Below are positions 11,132 to 63,323 of a stretch of 64,000 bases of DNA, piece by piece. Within the stretch, counting starts at the first letter, position 1. Every line of letters starts with the position of its first letter. The notes under the pieces were generated by a model. The model worked only from the letters and a program-made list of their open reading frames with translations, made no database searches and was not told the origin of the DNA. Origin of the DNA: Erythrobacter sp. KY5 (lineage in GTDB: Bacteria > Pseudomonadota > Alphaproteobacteria > Sphingomonadales > Sphingomonadaceae); assembly GCF_003264115.1 (NCBI RefSeq), contig NZ_CP021912.1, positions 62,001 through 126,000 of the forward strand. Direction: 5' to 3'. A program made the position numbers and the translations under genes.

Positions 11132-11812
11132 TTGGATGTCAGCTACAAGCGCCGTCAGTTGCTCGCCGGGATGGGAGCGTTCGGGACATTGGCGATGTTG
11201 CCGTCACCGCTACATGCACAGGGGCTCGGCCTTTCTTCGATATTGGGGCGCGCGACCGACAACGCGCTCCACAAGCTGGCTCAGCCCGGTGCTTTTTACG
11301 ATGACGAGGACATCCGCATCGGCCTCCCGATTGTCGGAAATCTCGGAGGGCGAGCCGGTGGCCTGATGGGCTCGCTGCTCAACGCCGGCAATCGCCTGGG
11401 CGTTCTGGGTGGCATTACCCGCTCAATCAACGATGCAGCCGGAGTTGCGGCGGGCGAGGCCAAGCCGATTTTCCGCGAGGCGATCGACAACCTTTCCTTC
11501 AGCGACGCGCCGGGTATCGTTCGCCAAAACGATGGCGGGACACAGTATCTGCGCCGATCTTCCAATGATCGCCTCCATTCGCGCCTCGAACCACTGGTGG
11601 ACAGCGCACTGGCAAAGGCGGGTGTGTATGGCCAGTTCGACAAGCTCGCCGAAGATCACAGCTTCATTCGTGATGCCGGGCTCAGCCGTGAGCGGATTAA
11701 TCGCTCGGTGACCGATCAGGGGCTTGATGGGATTTTCGCCTATATCGGCACTGAAGAACGCGAGTTCCGCTCCAACCCGCTTGGCGGTCTGGGCAATCTG
11801 CTCGGCAATTAG
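11132..11812 (+). CDS. DUF4197-domain secreted protein
   Basis: The 226-residue product begins with a Tat-like signal (KRRQLLAGMGAFGTLAML, cleavage near LHAQ-GL). The DUF4197 body follows, including AAGVAAGEAKPIFREAIDNL, YLRRSSNDRL and the C-terminal TDQGLDGIFAYIGTEEREFR. The TTG at 11132 has GAGGGAGAAAG just upstream. A GTG/ATG-type start at 11093 would add a cysteine-rich leader and fits less well. It converges with cdd with a 4-nt overlap. Function unknown. Confidence 0.75.
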   Translation: MDVSYKRRQLLAGMGAFGTLAMLPSPLHAQGLGLSSILGRATDNALHKLAQPGAFYDDEDIRIGLPIVGNLGGRAGGLMGSLLNAGNRLGVLGGITRSINDAAGVAAGEAKPIFREAIDNLSFSDAPGIVRQNDGGTQYLRRSSNDRLHSRLEPLVDSALAKAGVYGQFDKLAEDHSFIRDAGLSRERINRSVTDQGLDGIFAYIGTEEREFRSNPLGGLGNLLGN

Positions 11813-54270: not shown

Positions 54271-55428
54271 ATGACCGATACCGCATCAGTCGACCTTTTT
54301 CTGACCCGTACAGTGCGCGCTGTCCGACAGTGCGAGCAAGCAGCATGGGTCTTCACGGACCAGATCGATTGGCACGATGTTTGGCTGCGGATCGAGTATC
54401 ACGGGATCGCGTTCTTGCTCCACGACACCTTGGCGCAACTGGTCGATTGGCCGAGCGCGCTGATCGAGCGGATCGCCGAAGAAGCACGCTTGATCACGCT
54501 CTGGGAGGCGACCCATCACAAGCTCGTTTCGAGAGCGGTTCGCGAATTGGCAGAGCAAGACGTGGTCTCCGTCATGCTGAAAGGCACCGCGCTCGCCTAT
54601 TCCCTGCATGCTGAACCAGCAATCCGCAGGCGCGGAGACACCGATTTGCTGGTCCGCCCCGAAGATCTCGGCCAAACGCGCGAGGTGCTTGCAAGGCTCG
54701 GCTGGGAACGCAGGGTAGAACCGCATGGACTTTATTTTCAAGAGGGTTGGACGCACGAAGCAGCGGGCTTTTTCGTCCATTCGATCGACCTTCACTGGAA
54801 ACCCGTTGACCGCCCGGTCCTTCACGATGTGCTGCCGCTGGAGATGGTCTTCCAGGGCAAAATACCTCTGCCGCGATTTGATGAGACAGCCTTCCGGCCA
54901 GACACCGTCACCATGCTCTTGAACGCAGTCATCAATCAGAAATGGCACGCTGAAAATGGCTACTTTTCCGAGGACGGCAGGGTTTCGAGCCAGCGGCGCT
55001 TGATCTGGTCGATCGACTTCGACCTGATGGCGCGGTCGATGCAGGACGCCGACTGGGCCACCCTGACCGATCATTGCGTGGCTGAAGGAATTGCCCCGCT
55101 GGTGGCAGAGGCACTGATCGGAGTGAGCCGGGATTTGGGGACACCTCTCCCGCGATTGGTGGAGACGAGACTGAAAGCTGCGAAGCTCGCGCCCGATCTG
55201 GAGGCTTACTTCAATGACCATGACACGTTGGCGCAATTCAGACTCGATCTCAGTCATACCAGAGGCGCAGGTTCGAAGGCGAAGCTGCTGCTGTCTCGCG
55301 CCTTCCCGCCACGCAGGCATCTTATGGAAAGATACCCTGAGGCGCGAGGCTGGCCGACCATCGCCTTGCAAGGGCGCATGCTAATTGAGACCGCGGCGCG
55401 CCTTGTTCGCCAGAGACCGTCGCGATGA
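54271..55428 (+). CDS. Nucleotidyltransferase-family protein of the lasso cluster
   Basis: The 385-residue product matches the NTP_transf_5 family: VVSVMLKGTALAYSLHAEPA with K104/G105 and RRRGDTDLLVRPEDL with D123 and D125 of a nucleotidyltransferase active site. Members are recurrent partners of lasso-peptide clusters, where they have been linked to peptide tailoring. Its stop overlaps the start of the exporter gene (ATGA), which ties it to this cluster. The exact reaction cannot be read from the sequence. Confidence 0.8.
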   Translation: MTDTASVDLFLTRTVRAVRQCEQAAWVFTDQIDWHDVWLRIEYHGIAFLLHDTLAQLVDWPSALIERIAEEARLITLWEATHHKLVSRAVRELAEQDVVSVMLKGTALAYSLHAEPAIRRRGDTDLLVRPEDLGQTREVLARLGWERRVEPHGLYFQEGWTHEAAGFFVHSIDLHWKPVDRPVLHDVLPLEMVFQGKIPLPRFDETAFRPDTVTMLLNAVINQKWHAENGYFSEDGRVSSQRRLIWSIDFDLMARSMQDADWATLTDHCVAEGIAPLVAEALIGVSRDLGTPLPRLVETRLKAAKLAPDLEAYFNDHDTLAQFRLDLSHTRGAGSKAKLLLSRAFPPRRHLMERYPEARGWPTIALQGRMLIETAARLVRQRPSR

Positions 55429-57086
55429 GTTTCGGATTCTGGCTCCAGTGGGCACGAAGATTTCGAGGGCAGCTGACGCTGATCAGCGTTCTCACGTTGC
55501 TCAGTTCCGGGGCAACCCTCGCCGTTCCGTGGCTTGCCGCGCGAGTCCTTGGCGGGGTGATCTCGGCCGAACAAGTCTCCGACATCGATGTGGGGCAAGT
55601 CCTCACCTTGCTGGTAGCCGCCCTGGTTGCCCTCACCGCGCTCAACGTTGCGGCAGCTATTCTGTCAGAGCGCGCATCGACGCGGATCCTTACCGAGCTT
55701 CGCATCAAGATTTACAACCACGTCCAGATGCTGCGGCTTGGCTTTCATGATGATGCACGCCGGGGCGATGTGCTCGCACTTACATCCTACGAGGTTGGCA
55801 ACCTTAGCGACTTTCTGGCGGGCACCATCGCAAATGCGCCTGCCATGATCCTCACGGCTGCGGGTGCGATCATCATCCTGTTCGCAATCGACCCGGTGAT
55901 GGCCGCGATTGTTCCCCTACTCATTCCGGCATTCTACATCCTTGTCAGGCTGTCAGGCAGGCGTCTGCGCCGATTGTCGAGCGAGGTGCGTGCAGCAGAG
56001 GTCGAACTCATTACGCTTGCGGAGCGCGACCTTGAGATGCTTCCCGCAATCAAAGCATTCGCGACGGAAGAACAGCACCAAACCGAATTCGCTGCTGCAG
56101 CTGACAGGTCTCGGCGTCTCGCAGTCCGGCAGGCGCAATGGAGCGTCGCAATTGGGCCCGTCATGGCACTGGTCGCGGCGCTCGCGGCGATTGCTGTTCT
56201 CGTGTTCGGCAGTGAACAACTCCTCGAAGCAGATCGCTCTCCCAGCGATCTGTTCGCCTTTCTGTTTTATGCGGCGCTTCTCACGCAACCCGCTGGCGCG
56301 CTCGCCAAGATGTATGGCTCCTATCAAATGGCCCGCGGAACGTTGGCTCGGCTGGAGGCGGTGCTCGATCATGAGCCTGAGCCGGGTTATCAGGGCGGGA
56401 AAGGGTTAGAGCGGGCCAGGGGCGCCATTCAGTTCCATCAAGTCGGCTTCGGCTATTCGGGTCGTCCGAGACTTTTCAGCGAATTCAATTTCGAAGTGAA
56501 GCCGGGCGAAATCGTGGCTCTTACGGGCGAGAACGGCGTTGGGAAGTCTACCTTGATCCGCCTGCTGCTGCGTTTCTACGAACCGCTATCAGGGTCAATT
56601 ACGCTCGATGGGATTCCCATCAGCGACTATCAGGTTCAAGACTTGCGACGCCAGTTCGGTTACGTGCCACAGCGCGCCTTTCTCTTTAACGGCACGATTG
56701 CCGAGAACATCGTCTTCGGCCAGCCCGACCCAAACCCGAAAGAGGCCATCGATCGCGCAGCCAAACTCGCACAGGCGAGCGATTTCATCGCGTCGCTTCC
56801 TGATGGGGTTGAAACCGTTATCGGCGACAACGGCGTGCGCCTGTCGGGAGGGCAGCGCCAAAGGATCGCCCTTGCCCGCGCCCTCTACAGCCAACCGCCA
56901 ATCCACATCCTCGATGAGGCGACGAGCATGTATGACATTGATGGCGAAGCGGCTTTCGTCGAGGAGTGCATAGGCTCACTGAAGGGGCGTACCGTCATCA
57001 TCATTACTCATCGCCCGGCCAGCCTTGCGCTTGCCGACAGAGTTTTGAAGTTGGGAACGGACGGCCGCTTCGAGGTGGATCACTGA
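55425..57086 (+). CDS. lasD: ABC exporter of the lasso cluster
   Basis: The 553-residue half-transporter has a six-helix membrane domain and an ATPase domain with Walker A GENGVGKST (about 367-375), LSGGQRQR near 471, Walker B ILDEATSMYDIDGEAAF and H-loop ITHRPA. Such exporters pump the mature lasso peptide out and give self-immunity. It overlaps the nucleotidyltransferase gene by 4 nt and converges on the PqqD-like gene. Confidence 0.88.
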   Translation: MSFGFWLQWARRFRGQLTLISVLTLLSSGATLAVPWLAARVLGGVISAEQVSDIDVGQVLTLLVAALVALTALNVAAAILSERASTRILTELRIKIYNHVQMLRLGFHDDARRGDVLALTSYEVGNLSDFLAGTIANAPAMILTAAGAIIILFAIDPVMAAIVPLLIPAFYILVRLSGRRLRRLSSEVRAAEVELITLAERDLEMLPAIKAFATEEQHQTEFAAAADRSRRLAVRQAQWSVAIGPVMALVAALAAIAVLVFGSEQLLEADRSPSDLFAFLFYAALLTQPAGALAKMYGSYQMARGTLARLEAVLDHEPEPGYQGGKGLERARGAIQFHQVGFGYSGRPRLFSEFNFEVKPGEIVALTGENGVGKSTLIRLLLRFYEPLSGSITLDGIPISDYQVQDLRRQFGYVPQRAFLFNGTIAENIVFGQPDPNPKEAIDRAAKLAQASDFIASLPDGVETVIGDNGVRLSGGQRQRIALARALYSQPPIHILDEATSMYDIDGEAAFVEECIGSLKGRTVIIITHRPASLALADRVLKLGTDGRFEVDH

Positions 57087-57105
57087 GCGACTTCAGGCGC
57101 CGCGC

Positions 57106-57381
57106 CTAAGCGGCGACAATCAGATCCTGATCTTTCAACTGCTTTGCGAGAGACAAGAGATCGGCTTCGATGCGGTCGCGGGGTGCATCGAATTCGGCCT
57201 CTACGCTATCGCACAATTGCGCAAGCTCGCGCGGACCTTCGGCAAGCAGTTCCCAGATGCGACCTCCAACTGGATCAAGCCCGAAATACTGTCCGCTCGA
57301 TAGGTCGAGAAGAACCAATTCCCCGCCGACTTCGCGTGCAACCACGTCGGCAGAAACAGCAAAACGGTCGCTGAGTTGCAT
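57106..57381 (-). CDS. lasB1: PqqD-like RiPP recognition element (lasso B1)
   Basis: The 91-residue protein reads SADVVAREVGGELVLLDLSS, GQYFGLDPVGGRIWELLAEG, then a helical end. This is the PqqD winged-helix fold used as a RiPP recognition element. In lasso systems the B1 protein binds the precursor leader and hands it to the separate B2 peptidase. The ATG at 57381 (MQLSDRFAVSADVV) matches relatives in length. It lies 44 bp after the kinase gene on the same strand. Confidence 0.88.
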   Translation of the reverse strand: MQLSDRFAVSADVVAREVGGELVLLDLSSGQYFGLDPVGGRIWELLAEGPRELAQLCDSVEAEFDAPRDRIEADLLSLAKQLKDQDLIVAA

Positions 57382-57425
57382 AAGCAATTCCAGTATCCCC
57401 CAAAGCATGAGCGCGAAGGCTCCAG

Positions 57426-58304
57426 CTACCTCTTCGTCAGGTTGTCCAGCACCGCTTTCCTGACACGCGGCAATTCCGAGTAGTCGCGCGTAAAGTCAAG
57501 CGTGTAGCAGGGGATGTCCTGAGACAGGTCAGCAAGCCGGCTGAAATGCGCGCGCAGGTTCGGTTTGTCTTCAACATCGAGGATGAAGGCGTTGGGCAAA
57601 AGCGCCGCGAGTGCTTCCTGCAAGCTGAACTGTCGAATGGAGAGATCAGCGCGCAAATCGGTACCAAGCACATAAATCTGTCGCAGCGGATGGGCGGCAT
57701 CGGCAAAGGGCAAGCCTGCACCGGCGTCGACGTCCTGCTTGGTGTCGTCATTGTCGAACTGCGTATCGCTGCCCAAAAGGTGCCGCGCGCTATCGGCAAA
57801 CAGCCGCAGCTTTGATCGCTTGGGCTGCAGCCAGTAACGGCCGTTTTCGTTCACCAGATCGATGACGTCTTCGGTCAGGAAAGGGTGTCCGGCCTGAGCG
57901 AACGAGCCTGCCAGCGTCGTTTTCCCGCTGCGAGAAAGGCCGAGAAAGGCGATCGCGCCGTCCTGAGCGCCCGATTGGTCTTCTGCGCGGGCAAAAACAG
58001 CGCTGCCGTGAAGGAACAGCCCGCCTGAATGATTGCCGAGAATTGGCTGAATCGCATTGTGGTACAGGTTGATCGTCGTCTTCGCTTCACATTGCGGTGC
58101 GGGCCACCCGGTCACGCGAAATCCGCTATCGACGCTTGGGCCTTGCTCAATCAGAAAATCGGCCTGCGAGGGGAAACGGATCAAATAGCCGCGCTCATCG
58201 CGATAGAACTCAGCCTGACAATGTCCGGTAGGAGACACCCAACGATCATATGGGTCTACAGGCAGTTCAACCTGCTCACGCGGACTTGCTGGCTCCCATT
58301 CCAT
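57426..58304 (-). CDS. HPr-kinase-like lasso-peptide tailoring kinase
   Basis: The 292-residue product has a poorly conserved N-terminal half, then an HprK-like kinase core: H99 in LFLHGSAVF, P-loop GLSRSGKTT (122-130) and acidic residues in FLTEDVIDLV (D146, D149). Kinases of this type occur in paeninodin-like lasso clusters, where they phosphorylate a C-terminal serine. The precursor here ends in Phe, so the target must differ or the enzyme has another role. Gene order and strand put it downstream of the precursor, after a terminator. Confidence 0.8.
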   Translation of the reverse strand: MEWEPASPREQVELPVDPYDRWVSPTGHCQAEFYRDERGYLIRFPSQADFLIEQGPSVDSGFRVTGWPAPQCEAKTTINLYHNAIQPILGNHSGGLFLHGSAVFARAEDQSGAQDGAIAFLGLSRSGKTTLAGSFAQAGHPFLTEDVIDLVNENGRYWLQPKRSKLRLFADSARHLLGSDTQFDNDDTKQDVDAGAGLPFADAAHPLRQIYVLGTDLRADLSIRQFSLQEALAALLPNAFILDVEDKPNLRAHFSRLADLSQDIPCYTLDFTRDYSELPRVRKAVLDNLTKR

Positions 58305-58645
58305 TGCAATTAGCCTTTAGACACAAGTTCCACCCGTCGCCAACATCTGTGAGATTGTGTCGGTGTGGTGATTCGATTCGCAAATGACCGGAATCGCAGA
58401 CGCCTGCTCGTTCGTACCCGTGTTTGGCGGCTTGCCATGATTGGCGCGCGCAACGTGCCGTTAGAAGAACCAACTTACGCTGGTAAAGCCTGCATGTGCC
58501 CGATTACGAACCGTGAAACGGGGCAGTCTAGATGCGATGGAGATGACCTTCCCTGAAGCAATCTCAAAGCCTCGCGATCGCTCGACAGTCATCGGACAAA
58601 AGGAACCCGATCCACTTGAGAAATCACAGTTTTCCGGGCTTCAGG
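58305..58645. other. Non-coding gap between the lasso kinase and the precursor terminator
   Basis: I see no conserved coding sequence in these 341 bp. A plus-strand 49-codon frame (58543-58692) has no ribosome-binding site match to a lasso leader and crosses the terminator. The gap probably carries the promoter for the kinase and B1 genes, but I could not identify it. Confidence 0.5.
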
Positions 58646-58677
58646 CAAAACAAAAGGCACCCCGGATCGGAGCGCCT
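58646..58677 (-). terminator. Rho-independent terminator of the lasso precursor gene
   Basis: On the minus strand AGGCGCTCCG pairs with CGGGGTGCCT around ATC (10-bp stem with two G-U pairs). It is followed by TTTGTTTT. It lies about 50 bp after the precursor stop. Confidence 0.85.
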
Positions 58678-58697
58678 GATGTTACGCAATAAGCATC

Positions 58698-58713
58698 TCC
58701 GCCGATCGGCGGA
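58698..58713. repeat. Perfect 16-bp palindrome after the lasso precursor
   Basis: TCCGCCGATCGGCGGA is fully palindromic and lies 13 bp after the precursor stop, upstream of the terminator hairpin. It may protect the short precursor mRNA from 3' decay or bind a dimeric regulator. Confidence 0.6.
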
Positions 58714-58726
58714 ACGCCCGAATTGC

Positions 58727-58855
58727 TTAGAAGCGGGTGTTGGTTACCGCACCGTCGCGGAAGCTCGTACCGCTGCCGCCGGTGAGGTTACGTACCGAGC
58801 CGAAAACAGTCAGCTTCGGAGCCTCATACTTCACTTTTTCAGTCACTTTGGTCAT
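58727..58855 (-). CDS. lasA: Lasso-peptide precursor
   Basis: The 42-residue product has a leader with Y10-x2-P13-x-L15-x3-G19-x5-T25 (KYEAPKLTVFGSVRNLT), the pattern bound by lasso B1 proteins. Cleavage after G26, which leaves Thr25 at the conserved -2 position, gives a 16-residue core GSGTSFRDGAVTNTRF. Its only acidic residue, Asp34 (core position 8), can form the ring with Gly27. Cleavage before G26 would give a 9-residue ring instead. AGGACAGG lies eight bases upstream of the ATG. It follows the cyclase gene by 56 bp and is followed by a palindrome and terminator. Confidence 0.93.
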   Translation of the reverse strand: MTKVTEKVKYEAPKLTVFGSVRNLTGGSGTSFRDGAVTNTRF

Positions 58856-58911
58856 TGCAAAATCCTGTCCTGTTGCACCGCAGAGGCAGGGTTAATCCCC
58901 CTTACGTAAAA

Positions 58912-60780
58912 TTACTGATACAAAAATGCTGCGGATGCGTAAAGGCCCCAAATCTCCCAAGCCCAATAATCTCCCTCCGGCGCACTGAAATCGACGTTCA
59001 GAATCGTCTCGAGCCCTCCGAGATCACACATTTCAGAGAGTTGCTCAGCGGCGTTGGCGCGCACGTATTGCGCGAACTGCTGGTCAATTCCGGTGTTAGT
59101 GAAGTTAGCCTTATTAGTCCGCCACACCACCTCGTCGGGAAGGATCCCAGCCATGGCCTTGCGGTGAATGACCTTGGTTAGCGCCCCTCTCAATTTGATG
59201 TCGATCGGAGTGCGCAGCGAAAACTCGATGAAGGCTCGGCTCATCATGGGGTGACGCGATTCGACGCCGATCAAAGACCGCTGGCGACGCATCAGCTGGT
59301 GCGACAGATCGCTAAATGGCGAAGTCGCGGTATTATGCTTCGTCCAATCGACAGCGTTGTGGGGCAACTCGGCCTCATATCGCTCCTCGGCATCGGCCAA
59401 GGCCTCGCGCAGCTCAGGCGAAAGCCAGTTCATCGCGGAGTCTTTTGCTCTACGCGATGCGCGCAAGCGGCGCCTTATTCGGTCCCTCAACCATCGAGGC
59501 GCCAATTCCGCACTTGTGAAACGCATTGATCGCTTTAGGGCGCGCTCCCAACCAAACGCGTCGGCGTCGCGGCGCAAAGCTTGCCAGTACTTTACCCAAT
59601 CACCTCTGGCGGCATATTCGGAATAATAGAGCTCGTTGCCCTGCAACCACTCATCCCCGCCGCCGCCATTGATGAGAACGCGCGCGCCATCTGCGACAGC
59701 ACGTTCTTCAAGCCCCCACATCATCGCGCCGTTGGATGGCGTCGGTATGTCCATGTGCCGAGCACCATCGGCGGTGTACCACTCGATATCGGGATCGAAC
59801 AAAGGCACTTCGACGAGTTCGCGCCCCACATGTGCGGCGACGGCCCTCGCATAAGGCAGTTCAAATGCATTGCCGCCTTCTTCAGCAGCAAGCGAATAGG
59901 CAGCGATGCCGGGCGCGAGGGTTTGGCCCGAAGTTTCAAGTCGATGAGCGATCGCGAACAGAGCAGATGAATCGAGCCCTCCGCTAACGGCAACGCCCAC
60001 CTCGCGATTCGACCGCAAGACGCGACGAACGCAATCGAACAGCATCTCGCGATAATGTTCCACGTAATCTTCGTCGCGCTTGTAACGGATCGTCACCTCG
60101 GTTGGCGGCGTCCAGTACCTCTGCGCCGTGATATTTGATCCATCGAAACGCAATGTATGAGCCCGTACGATCCGCTTGATCTCAGCCCACGGTGTCGCAT
60201 CGCGCAGATACCAGCGATTGGCCATGATCTGCGCGAGATAAAGGCGGTCCGGTGTCATTGCCGGCAACCCGAGCAATTCGCCAAGCGCGGCGAGCGTTGC
60301 AAAATCGGAAGCCACGATAAGTCGCCCTGCTTCGCAACGGTAGTAAAGCGGAACTGTCCCCATATGGTCGCGGGCCGCAAACAGATGCCCTCGACCCAAG
60401 TCTGCGACGATCATCGCAAACTCGCCGTGCATCCTGTTCGCGCACTCATCACCCCATGCCTCGTATGCGCGCAGGGCGATCTCGACCTCCGATCGACCCG
60501 AGAATTTTACTCCTCTCGCTTCGAGGTCCAAGATCAATTCGTCCGGGTTAAGCAGATAGCCATCGAAAACAGCAGAGAGCTTGCCGCTGTCGCAAACAAA
60601 TGGCTGGGCCTGCGTCGCTGATTCACCGGTCGTGTGCCTGGTCGCGGACGCTAATGCTATGCGTCCGCCTCGCCACGCACCGCTCTCGTCATGCGGAATG
60701 CGCGACAGCGAGCGGCCGAGCACAGCAAGCTGATCGGCCTGCACGTCCTCGTCTGAAAAGATCCCACCGATCGCCGACAC
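58912..60780 (-). CDS. lasC: Lasso-peptide cyclase (asparagine synthase-like)
   Basis: The 622-residue product has a glutaminase-like N-terminal domain that starts MSAIGGIF, without the catalytic Cys2 of true AsnB, as usual in lasso cyclases. The synthase domain has the ATP PP-loop AVSGGLDSSALF (about 264-275) and later INGGGGDEWLQGNE. It should adenylate Asp34 and close the macrolactam with the core N terminus. The start is GTG at 60780. The divergent leader-peptidase gene begins about 110 bp away. Confidence 0.93.
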   Translation of the reverse strand: MSAIGGIFSDEDVQADQLAVLGRSLSRIPHDESGAWRGGRIALASATRHTTGESATQAQPFVCDSGKLSAVFDGYLLNPDELILDLEARGVKFSGRSEVEIALRAYEAWGDECANRMHGEFAMIVADLGRGHLFAARDHMGTVPLYYRCEAGRLIVASDFATLAALGELLGLPAMTPDRLYLAQIMANRWYLRDATPWAEIKRIVRAHTLRFDGSNITAQRYWTPPTEVTIRYKRDEDYVEHYREMLFDCVRRVLRSNREVGVAVSGGLDSSALFAIAHRLETSGQTLAPGIAAYSLAAEEGGNAFELPYARAVAAHVGRELVEVPLFDPDIEWYTADGARHMDIPTPSNGAMMWGLEERAVADGARVLINGGGGDEWLQGNELYYSEYAARGDWVKYWQALRRDADAFGWERALKRSMRFTSAELAPRWLRDRIRRRLRASRRAKDSAMNWLSPELREALADAEERYEAELPHNAVDWTKHNTATSPFSDLSHQLMRRQRSLIGVESRHPMMSRAFIEFSLRTPIDIKLRGALTKVIHRKAMAGILPDEVVWRTNKANFTNTGIDQQFAQYVRANAAEQLSEMCDLGGLETILNVDFSAPEGDYWAWEIWGLYASAAFLYQ

Positions 60781-60836
60781 AGCCTTGCGCTCTCACCTCT
60801 TATCGCCCTGGATACCGCAGCGCTTTTGCCGCAGTG

Positions 60837-60865
60837 CTTGGCAGGGCCAGCAAGCCTGTGCCAAG
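60837..60865. promoter_or_regulatory. Inverted repeat between lasC and lasB2
   Basis: CTTGGCA (60837-60843) and TGCCAAG (60859-60865) are perfect 7-bp arms separated by 15 bp in the divergent lasC/lasB2 intergenic region. It may be a regulator site controlling both transcripts. No regulator gene is found next to the cluster. Confidence 0.35.
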
Positions 60866-60888
60866 AGGAGCGCGGACATAGGCACTTC

Positions 60889-61389
60889 ATGGAAACCGCG
60901 CAATCATCACCGGTCCCGGCCAAGGGGCAAAAGCCATCTTTGACCGATATCGTCTGGCTCGCGAGCTATTCGGCACGCGGACTGAGCGAATTGGTGCGAG
61001 CGCGGCTCATTTTCCAGAAGCTCAAGGCGAGTGACATTCCGGTGAGAAACCACGTGGTGGGCAAGGTCGGAAGCCAAATCGCCGATCAAAGCCGCGAGGA
61101 GCATTCCGCAACGCTCGCTCGAATCCGGTACGTGATCCCGCGCCTGTCCGACCGCCTGCCTTGGCGCAGCGACTGCCTGATCCAGGCAATTGCAGCTCAG
61201 AACTGGTTGGCAGCGTTAGGCGCTCAAAGCGAAATCCAGATAGGCGTCGAGAAACCAGAGGACGGTCAATTCGGCGCTCACGCATGGCTTGTTTCAGGCG
61301 GCGAAATCGTGACCGGGGGGGATATCGCGCAATACGATGTTATCCTGTCCGAGTCGCGCCTCAGCAGCGACTCGGGAACCAAAAGCTGA
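60889..61389 (+). CDS. lasB2: Lasso leader peptidase B2 (transglutaminase-like)
   Basis: The 166-residue product has a helical N-terminal part and the transglutaminase-like protease core: C96 in LPWRSDCLIQAIAAQNWL, H131 in FGAHAWLVSGG and D145 in TGGDIAQYD. These form the Cys-His-Asp triad that cuts the leader from the core. It is on the opposite strand to the precursor, B1 and cyclase genes. The ATG at 60889 is used; a TTG 63 bp upstream would add a non-conserved extension. Confidence 0.9.
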   Translation: METAQSSPVPAKGQKPSLTDIVWLASYSARGLSELVRARLIFQKLKASDIPVRNHVVGKVGSQIADQSREEHSATLARIRYVIPRLSDRLPWRSDCLIQAIAAQNWLAALGAQSEIQIGVEKPEDGQFGAHAWLVSGGEIVTGGDIAQYDVILSESRLSSDSGTKS

Positions 61390-61549: not shown

Positions 61550-61825
61550 ATGAAAAAGACGATTTCTCGCGTGATGGTATCGGCTGCTGCTGCTGGCTTG
61601 GTGTTCGCACCGATCGCTGCTCAGGCTAACACCCGCGCTGCTGACAACGCTCCGGTCTATTCGGCTGAGCCTGCTTCCCAGCCGGGCCTCGCTCGCGAAG
61701 CTGAAGGCGAAAACGCACGCGGCGGAACCAGCGTTGTTCTCCTGCTTCTCGCTGCTGCTGCTGCGGTTGCGGGCATTGTTGCGGTTGTCGACAATGACGA
61801 CGACGGTCAGTCGCCCGGCACCTGA
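61550..61825 (+). CDS. Small exported membrane protein with an acidic tail
   Basis: The 91-residue product has a signal peptide (ISRVMVSAAAAGLVFAPIAA, then QANT), a charged Ala/Glu-rich middle and a C-terminal helix (SVVLLLLAAAAAVAGIVAVV) ended by DNDDDGQSPGT. After cleavage it would sit in the inner membrane with a short acidic tail. I recognise no family. The ATG at 61550 follows AAGGGGGG. Its GC-rich, Ala-coding codons (repeated GCTGCTGCT) differ in style from its neighbours. Confidence 0.65.
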   Translation: MKKTISRVMVSAAAAGLVFAPIAAQANTRAADNAPVYSAEPASQPGLAREAEGENARGGTSVVLLLLAAAAAVAGIVAVVDNDDDGQSPGT

Positions 61826-61901: not shown

Positions 61902-61964
61902 TGTCTGGATTGCGTGCAAGCATTCGTGCGGCATTTGCCAGTGATCGGGCGGGACCCATTGACG

Positions 61965-63323
61965 ATGACGAATCAAACAATCGCTGAGCGAAAGCTCTTC
62001 TGGGCGGGCCTCGCGATCCTTGTCGCGGCATTTGCGTTCGGCGGCGGCGGATCGAAATACGGCTCGGCGAACTTGATTGTTCAGCTGGTCGCGCTGGTGG
62101 CGCTGTCGTTTCATCGCGCTGCGTTCTTCGAATTCTGGAGGTCGGCGCCGCTCGCGCTCAAAGCGCTTATCGGACTGACATTCCTCCTGCCGATCCTTCA
62201 CATCGTGCCGCTGCCACCGTCAGTGTGGAATGCCTTCCCGGGTCGCCTGCTGATGGTGCAGGCGCTCGAACTGGTGGATGCGAACGATTGGGCAACGCTA
62301 AGCGTTGATCCGATCCGCACTCTTCTGGCCCTGAGCGCAGTTATCGCGCCGCTTGCTCTCCTCACGATTGGATGGAGTGCCCCCCGAGACAGGCTCATCA
62401 CCCTTGGCTGGTGCGCAGTCGCAATTGGGCTCGTCAACTTTGGGCTCGGCATTCCTCAGGTTCTTTCGAACAGCGACGTCGGTGTCTTGTATCCGGAAAA
62501 TCCGATGCCGGGCGTGCTGTTCGGCACCTTTGCGAACCGAAACTCTACCGGCGTTTTTCTCGTCGGTGCGCTTGCTCTGGCCGCGTTGCTGCCTATGCCA
62601 GCGCGGTTCCAGCAGCTCGGCGTGTGGGCGCGTCCGGCGATTTGCCTTCTTCTCCTGCTCGCCATTCTTCTGACACGTTCGCGCACCGCCATCGTTCTGG
62701 CAGCGATCCCGATGGGCCTTGTGGCGATGAGATTCCTGTTCGCGAGGCTCGGATCGACCGCCTCGGTCAGGGCAGGCTGGTTGGCAATCGTGCCGGTGGT
62801 GCTCGTTATTGGTGCTCTCGGCACGCTTGCGATCACGTCTCCCGGACGCGTTGCAGAAGTGGTCGACAGATTCGAAGGGTCGGGAACCGATGCGCGCGCT
62901 TTTATCTGGGAAGACGCCGCATACTCCGCAGAAAGGTACTTTCCGGTCGGCTCTGGCATGGGCACCTTCGACGACGTTTTCCAGATCGACGAATCGCTCG
63001 AAAACATGACCCTGCGACGGGCGGGCCGGGCGCATAACGACTATCTCGAAATCGCAATCGAGGCCGGCTTGCCTGGCCTGATCCTCACCGCCGCCTGGCT
63101 TGGCCTCCTTGCGTGGCTGGCATGGCGGGCACGCAAGGCGCACGATCGATGGATCGCCTGGAGTGGAGGCGCATTTCTGCTTGCAGCAGCGCTTCAGTCG
63201 ATAACCGACTATCCATTGCGCAACCAATCGCTCCTCGTATTCGGCGCGTTTGCGCTGGTGCTTTTGGTCCGGTTCGGGACCGATGAAGCGGAACGATCAG
63301 GCAGGACGGAGAAGCGGCCATGA
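61965..63323 (+). CDS. O-antigen ligase/polymerase-family membrane protein
   Basis: The 452-residue product has about twelve membrane helices and a Wzy_C/ligase periplasmic loop with the typical ALFIW-like element (DARAFIWEDAAYSAERYFPV, then GSGMGTFDDVFQ). This is a second protein of this class, besides the one at 41636-43012. It may be the true polymerase or a ligase for another glycan. The ATG at 61965 (MTNQTIAERKLFWAG) is preferred over a TTG 51 bp upstream. The next gene overlaps its stop (ATGA). Confidence 0.82.
   Translation: MTNQTIAERKLFWAGLAILVAAFAFGGGGSKYGSANLIVQLVALVALSFHRAAFFEFWRSAPLALKALIGLTFLLPILHIVPLPPSVWNAFPGRLLMVQALELVDANDWATLSVDPIRTLLALSAVIAPLALLTIGWSAPRDRLITLGWCAVAIGLVNFGLGIPQVLSNSDVGVLYPENPMPGVLFGTFANRNSTGVFLVGALALAALLPMPARFQQLGVWARPAICLLLLLAILLTRSRTAIVLAAIPMGLVAMRFLFARLGSTASVRAGWLAIVPVVLVIGALGTLAITSPGRVAEVVDRFEGSGTDARAFIWEDAAYSAERYFPVGSGMGTFDDVFQIDESLENMTLRRAGRAHNDYLEIAIEAGLPGLILTAAWLGLLAWLAWRARKAHDRWIAWSGGAFLLAAALQSITDYPLRNQSLLVFGAFALVLLVRFGTDEAERSGRTEKRP

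Follow-up and report, generated by a model that had tools for sequence, protein, structure and literature searches.

Our analysis of a 64,000-nucleotide stretch of the Erythrobacter sp. KY5 chromosome (called the window here; positions 62001 to 126000 of C1, the single contig of its 3.31-Mb host genome, G000) confirmed that the lasso peptide biosynthetic cluster at window positions 54271 to 61389 is real. The cluster comprises a precursor (A), a recognition protein (B1) of the kind found with ribosomally synthesized and posttranslationally modified peptides (RiPPs), a leader peptidase (B2), a cyclase (C), an exporter (D), a peptide kinase (K), and a nucleotidyltransferase-like protein (N); judging from its sequence, this cluster of the kinase-plus-nucleotidyltransferase type makes a lasso peptide with a probability that we put at roughly 85%. 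Related genomes and the rest of the host genome revealed two further features: a second, distant precursor in the same genome and, in relatives, precursors fused to a Peptidase_S74 domain. Neither is visible from the window, and both were missed by the first-pass annotation, which had been made from the window alone.

That annotation had called a complete lasso cluster, and all seven genes are open frames in the places where it had put them. Domain families were scored by Pfam cut-offs and lasso-specific models by NCBIfam cut-offs; the Pfam models and the NCBIfam leader and B2 models were passed (Table 1). The cyclase begins with MSAIGG, without an N-terminal Cys, and contains SGGLDSS. B2, the sole PF13471 match in the genome, has two candidate starts, a TTG at 60826 and an ATG at 60889. 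Lasso B1 structures were the best matches to B1 in the PDB, with TbiB1 at the top (E 2.9e-14). The genes for N and D overlap by 4 bases, and N belongs, by annotation, to the class of PsmN and BsfN.

Table 1. Positions of the features discussed, in window coordinates unless a contig or locus is named
Feature	Position	Strand	Evidence or remark
N, NTP_transf_5 family nucleotidyltransferase-like	54271..55428	+	PF14907 93.1 bits (cut-off 31.2), 2.7e-26
D, ABC exporter, membrane and ATPase domains fused	55425..57086	+	PF00664 and PF00005 above cut-off
B1, PqqD-like RiPP recognition element	57106..57408	-	PF05402 73.1 bits (cut-off 23.4)
K, putative HPr-kinase/PEPCK-fold peptide kinase	57426..58304	-	motif H..GxSxxGKT..ED; profile and predicted structure
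Intrinsic terminator after precursor	58655..58677	-	10-pair stem, then T-rich tail
A, lasso precursor, 42 aa	58727..58855	-	NF033521 26.8 bits (cut-off 19)
Predicted core of A, GSGTSFRDGAVTNTRF	58730..58777	-	ring Gly1 to Asp8; Asp codon 58756-58754
Leader of A, residues 1-26	58778..58855	-	YxxPxL and T at -2; predicted boundary, by the T(-2) rule
C, lasso cyclase, Asn-synthetase family	58912..60780	-	PF00733 150.9 bits (cut-off 21); PF13537 above cut-off
B2, leader peptidase, transglutaminase-like	60889..61389	+	NF033537 63.4 bits (cut-off 33); PF13471 Transglut_core3 73.3 (26)
Small conserved protein beside cluster	61550..61825	+	adjoins cluster in 30/36 layout-sharing loci
Second precursor, 45 aa, core GSFTRARDGAIQRSRF	G000 C1:3206794-3206931 (L023:1498-1635)	-	NF033521 19.4 bits (cut-off 19)
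S74-fused precursors	L030:7512-7898, L033:9428-9787, L024:1489-1881, L037-L054 (L045 broken)		

The leader of A reads Y10-x2-P13-x-L15-x3-G19-x5-T25, as in the first-pass annotation, and the predicted core boundary follows from the same T(-2) rule that had been applied there. The predicted product, GSGTSFRDGAVTNTRF, has 16 residues with a Gly1-Asp8 ring and ends in Arg-Phe, without a C-terminal Ser; recomputation reproduced the masses calculated earlier (1653.786 Da, and 1710.807 Da for a core starting at Gly26). Relative to the closest genome (G320), whose cyclase is 86% identical to that of the window, the precursor gene differs by 1 synonymous change and by 0 amino acid changes, which argues that the frame is not there by chance, and the predicted product is the same in this sister genome. 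In the family sample of 298 genomes, the cyclase was found in 10 at a threshold of E<=1e-60, the window's own genome counted in. Precursor matches occurred in 11 genomes, including a chance match in G269 that was dropped; in 9 of the 9 other genomes with a true match, the precursor lies next to a lasso cyclase. The check on conserved counterparts that the first-pass annotation had proposed against its own product prediction thus spoke for that prediction. In the genus, 33 of 114 genomes, again counting the window's own, have the cyclase at E<=1e-50. The core had earlier been presented as matching no familiar lasso peptide, but it is not isolated, with 12 other RF-type cores read in the genus; an acid occupies core position 8 in 29 of the 30 unfused cluster cores listed, the window's included.

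The placement of the precursor downstream of the cyclase had been described as unusual, which did not hold among relatives. Besides the window, 38 cyclase loci were compared (33 within the genus, two of them in G359, and 5 elsewhere in the family), and 36 of them share the order N> D> <B1 <K (<MT) <A <C B2>, where MT is a methyltransferase gene. The precursor sits between the cyclase and the kinase in 35 of these 36 layout-sharing loci, and N adjoins the cluster in all 36. Of the 18 loci that encode fused precursors (see below), mostly in more distant relatives, 15 likewise have the cyclase followed by the precursor. Since 36 of the 38 other loci have the arrangement, it is an inherited one and no oddity. 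The terminator proposed after the precursor was recovered as well, and a stem-loop followed by a T run trails the precursor in 12 of the 15 RF-type clusters, counting that of the window, with varying stem bases (15 of 28 among all clusters examined). The region as a whole has 4 terminator-like sites versus a mean of 5.1 in shuffled sequence and hence no excess.

The kind of cluster found in the window is already known, since its gene set equals that of a published cluster. The bsf cluster of Bradymonas sediminis (PMC10368454; this and the other published systems are described here from excerpts of the papers cited) has the same seven families, A, B1, B2, C, D, K, and N, and a Gly1-Asp8 ring. 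In that system, BsfK phosphorylates core Ser3, BsfB1 speeds both phosphorylation and leader removal, and BsfB2 removes the leader. It differs from the window in having Ile rather than Thr at -2, in carrying its phosphate on a residue that is Gly in the window core, and in a kinase with Asp-Asp rather than Glu-Asp; the window's genome, moreover, has a second precursor elsewhere. An HPrK-like precursor kinase is also shared with the paeninodin, ThcoA, SyanA, and pseudomycoidin clusters, the last of which has a nucleotidyltransferase homolog too (PMC9266682), but in these four the phosphate is on a C-terminal Ser, which the window core lacks. PsmK phosphorylates, and PsmN is needed, directly or indirectly, for the hexose on the phospho-Ser of pseudomycoidin (PMC9266682). 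Sphingomonad lasso clusters such as that of sphingocin (PMC11006600), from the same bacterial order, likewise have a lasso cyclase and B2 but carry an isopeptidase and a TonB receptor, whereas the seven genes of the window include a kinase and a nucleotidyltransferase instead.

Modeling and profile searches indicate that K has a PEPCK/HPr-kinase fold. No Pfam family scored above its cut-off, but a profile of 17 K sequences had HPr kinase 1jb1 as its first PDB match (E 6.6e-5), and the AlphaFold model (pLDDT 91.9) matches PEPCK and HPr kinase (3tqf) structures. Each of the 13 family loci that the search pattern picked up (13 of 13) has the K motif; relative to the catalytic His-Lys-Asp-Asp, the His, the Lys, and the second Asp are present and the first Asp is replaced by Glu, while Asp-Asp is kept in all 13 kinases compared from outside Erythrobacteraceae. 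The phosphate would most likely sit on a core hydroxyl within the ring, Ser2 or Thr4. The ring is favored because the core has no C-terminal Ser, because Ser2 is present in 30 of the 30 unfused cluster cores listed, and because position 14 is Val in the RF-type clusters of G331, G389, and G390 (L153, L155, and L158), all of which keep the kinase. An alternative target would be the C-terminal part of the core, in the manner of PadeK, ThcoK, and SyanK acting on a C-terminal Ser. SyanK is itself of sphingomonad origin (PMC9266682), and position 14 is Ser or Thr in the majority of RF-type cores. We nevertheless consider such a target unlikely: none of the RF-type cores read ends in Ser, the Val at position 14 coexists with a kinase, Ser2 is invariant in the listed cores, and BsfK acts inside the ring (PMC10368454). 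A simple carry-over of C-terminal phosphorylation to the window core is accordingly doubtful on sequence grounds.

Several points weigh against the conclusion that the window cluster makes a lasso peptide. The NF033535 lasso cyclase model matches at 263.9 bits, below its cut-off of 525, and the NF033536 lasso PqqD model matches B1 at 51 bits, below its cut-off of 80; the names given to the cyclase and B1 therefore lean also on their neighborhood and, for B1, on the solved lasso B1 structures. The kinase has Glu-Asp where characterized lasso kinases have Asp-Asp, and Glu is found in all 13 of the pattern-caught family loci. The two exceptions to the shared layout (L168 and L169) have a cyclase and a precursor, the other cluster genes not being found within 20 kb. 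Finally, according to the excerpts of PMC10368454, the bsf authors detected no mature lasso peptide from a cluster of the same genes.

Reading each step from the gene families, we would expect the cyclase and the precursor to be on one transcript and the terminator just past the precursor to keep its message more abundant than that of the kinase and B1 genes farther downstream. The YxxPxL leader would be bound by B1, and the kinase, aided by B1, would phosphorylate the core hydroxyl, most likely that of ring Ser2 or Thr4; B2 would then cleave after Thr25-Gly26, the cyclase would link Gly1 to Asp8 around the tail, and D would release the product, whose phosphate N may decorate. Threading cannot be read from sequence, and lassomycin was at first reported to be unthreaded, which was later corrected (PMC9266682). 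A lariat without lasso topology, that is, an unthreaded macrolactam RiPP, is nonetheless a very improbable product here, as the leader, B1, B2, and the cyclase are all of the lasso kind.

The second precursor (GSFTRARDGAIQRSRF; 1805.94 Da if cyclized) lies about 0.22 Mb from the cluster around the chromosome, if circular, between a symporter gene (PF00474) and a TauD-family dioxygenase gene (PF02668), with no cyclase in the 18 kb around it. Its sequence and distribution suggest that it is probably served by the window cluster, in which case the same machinery processing it would make two related peptides from one cluster. The dioxygenase of this locus is present in 43 of the 114 genus genomes. 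Among the 24 of these that also have the cyclase (E<=1e-50), 12 carry a precursor next to the dioxygenase, versus 0 among the 19 that lack the cyclase (Fisher P = 3e-4, ancestry ignored). No leader was found beside the dioxygenase in the other 12 cyclase-bearing genomes or in 18 of the 19 cyclase-free genomes; G352, which is cyclase-free, was scored by profile search alone. Among the precursor-free stretches, two are cut short by contig ends, and in five the neighbor is something other than the symporter. In all 12 genomes, the type of distant copy tracks that of the resident cluster, with 8 RF-type clusters paired with unfused RD-type copies and 4 methyltransferase clusters paired with S74-fused ND-type copies. 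Other observations speak less well for this link: the 12/24-versus-0/19 and 12/12 counts ignore shared ancestry, half (12 of 24) of the cyclase-bearing genomes with the dioxygenase locus lack the distant precursor, and G307 (L104; 100% complete by listing) has a precursor and no cyclase at E<=1e-30, so that this cyclase does not serve all distant precursors. The cluster might instead be an ordinary one that makes only its own peptide, the distant precursor being a dead duplicate, as its absence from those 12 genomes and the lack of an adjacent cyclase would allow. This seems rather unlikely to us, since G320 encodes the same second core, three of its codons differing silently, while the leader has drifted, and since copy type and resident cluster agree throughout, albeit among genomes of shared ancestry.

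In relatives, some precursors carry a C-terminal Peptidase_S74 domain, both in clusters (2 of the 9 others in the family sample, L030 and L033) and on distant copies (4 of 12). Two strict patterns for the S74 part, run against 84,980 species genomes, yielded 18 loci, including Aurantiacibacter, Novosphingobium, Mesorhizobium, Burkholderiales, Thiobacillaceae, Competibacter, and Contendobacter, which we take to belong to the Alpha-, Beta-, and Gammaproteobacteria. A cyclase is just upstream in the 15 loci mentioned above; two of the rest are at contig ends, and the third, L051, is a distant copy. Of the 18 loci, 16 have the kinase and 13 the methyltransferase. PF13884 matches the fused precursors (16/16 and 3/3). 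In a set of 22, from which the broken L045 was excluded and in which L044 was kept despite having no start codon, all have an acid at core position 8 or 9, and all keep the Ser and Lys of S[DC]xxxK; this conservation is no search effect, because the search patterns left out the Ser-Lys stretch. The part that precedes this Ser is 17 long at the median (16 to 30), versus 16 (15 to 34) for the 30 unfused cluster cores; the fusion thus begins at about the point where unfused precursors end. A search of the window precursor itself found neither an S74 domain nor a remnant of one.

The fused precursors match the same family as the intramolecular chaperone autocleavage domains of phages and MyRF and keep their Ser-Lys pair, but unlike those domains they are fused to a lasso core and stop before the C-terminal trimerizing helix (PMC8326128). 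The 16 aligned members end shortly past the VDY..LGI stretch, and the model aligns to MyRF 606-677, so that the lasso fusions end ahead of the helix. Self-cleavage of MyRF depends on this Ser-Lys pair and occurs only in trimers held by that helix (PMC8326128). The start of the fusion at the unfused end point, together with the complete conservation of Ser and Lys, suggests that fused precursors may be released by self-cleavage. We tentatively propose, at somewhat less than even odds, a class of S74-fused precursors in several proteobacterial groups in which the truncated domain would hold the tail at ring closure, block unthreading, and cut itself off at the Ser to give the correct C terminus, along with one cluster in the genus serving scattered fused and unfused precursors. 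If S74 is still attached at ring closure, the tail could not pass through a ring that had already formed, and the ring would have to close around a prefolded tail. Lasso cyclization would then act on a tail ending in a folded domain, the fusion would offer a direct test of the threading mechanism, and a self-cleaving domain would be an unfamiliar route to finishing a RiPP C terminus.

The window cluster is thus a further member of a known kinase/nucleotidyltransferase lasso kind, and it is the distant and fused precursors that set the wider system apart; these extensions matter more than the window cluster itself. Neither type of precursor was found described among the matches listed from the open-licence PMC literature. 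Chaperone and C-terminal-domain terms gave no such domain in a 2026 review (PMC13352647), and the follower-peptide and autoproteolysis passages of a RiPP protease review (PMC10885120) name none. Searches confined to the neighborhood of the cyclase would miss distant precursors, and length filters may miss the fused ones, which have 118 to 141 residues.

The layout-sharing loci vary in detail. A was not found in L167 and was visible in one of two locus readings in L028; L032 and L033 showed no D, a gene that sits on the opposite side in L173; no B2 turned up in L033, L165, L167, or L173, and L174 breaks off within the cyclase. The cluster precursor of G300 (C1:82629-82757; L073 and L111) contains an in-frame TAG and is perhaps lost. 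The small protein at 61550..61825 is perhaps outside the cluster proper; the gene at window positions 61914-63323, presumably O-antigen-ligase-like, comes next in 35 of the 36 loci. In 17 of the 36 loci, but in none of the RF-type clusters examined, a methyltransferase gene separates A from K, and the window also has none; these genes are PRMT-like (e.g., L026:6644-7783 and L029:9423-10553). In L095 and L098 (G401 and G385), a precursor adjoins a methyltransferase gene with no cyclase within 8 kb, and the resident clusters there are without a methyltransferase. The precursors of L168 (a tandem pair at 11684 and 12121) and L169 (10002) have Cys pairs in the core and could possibly give rise to disulfide-bearing lassos.

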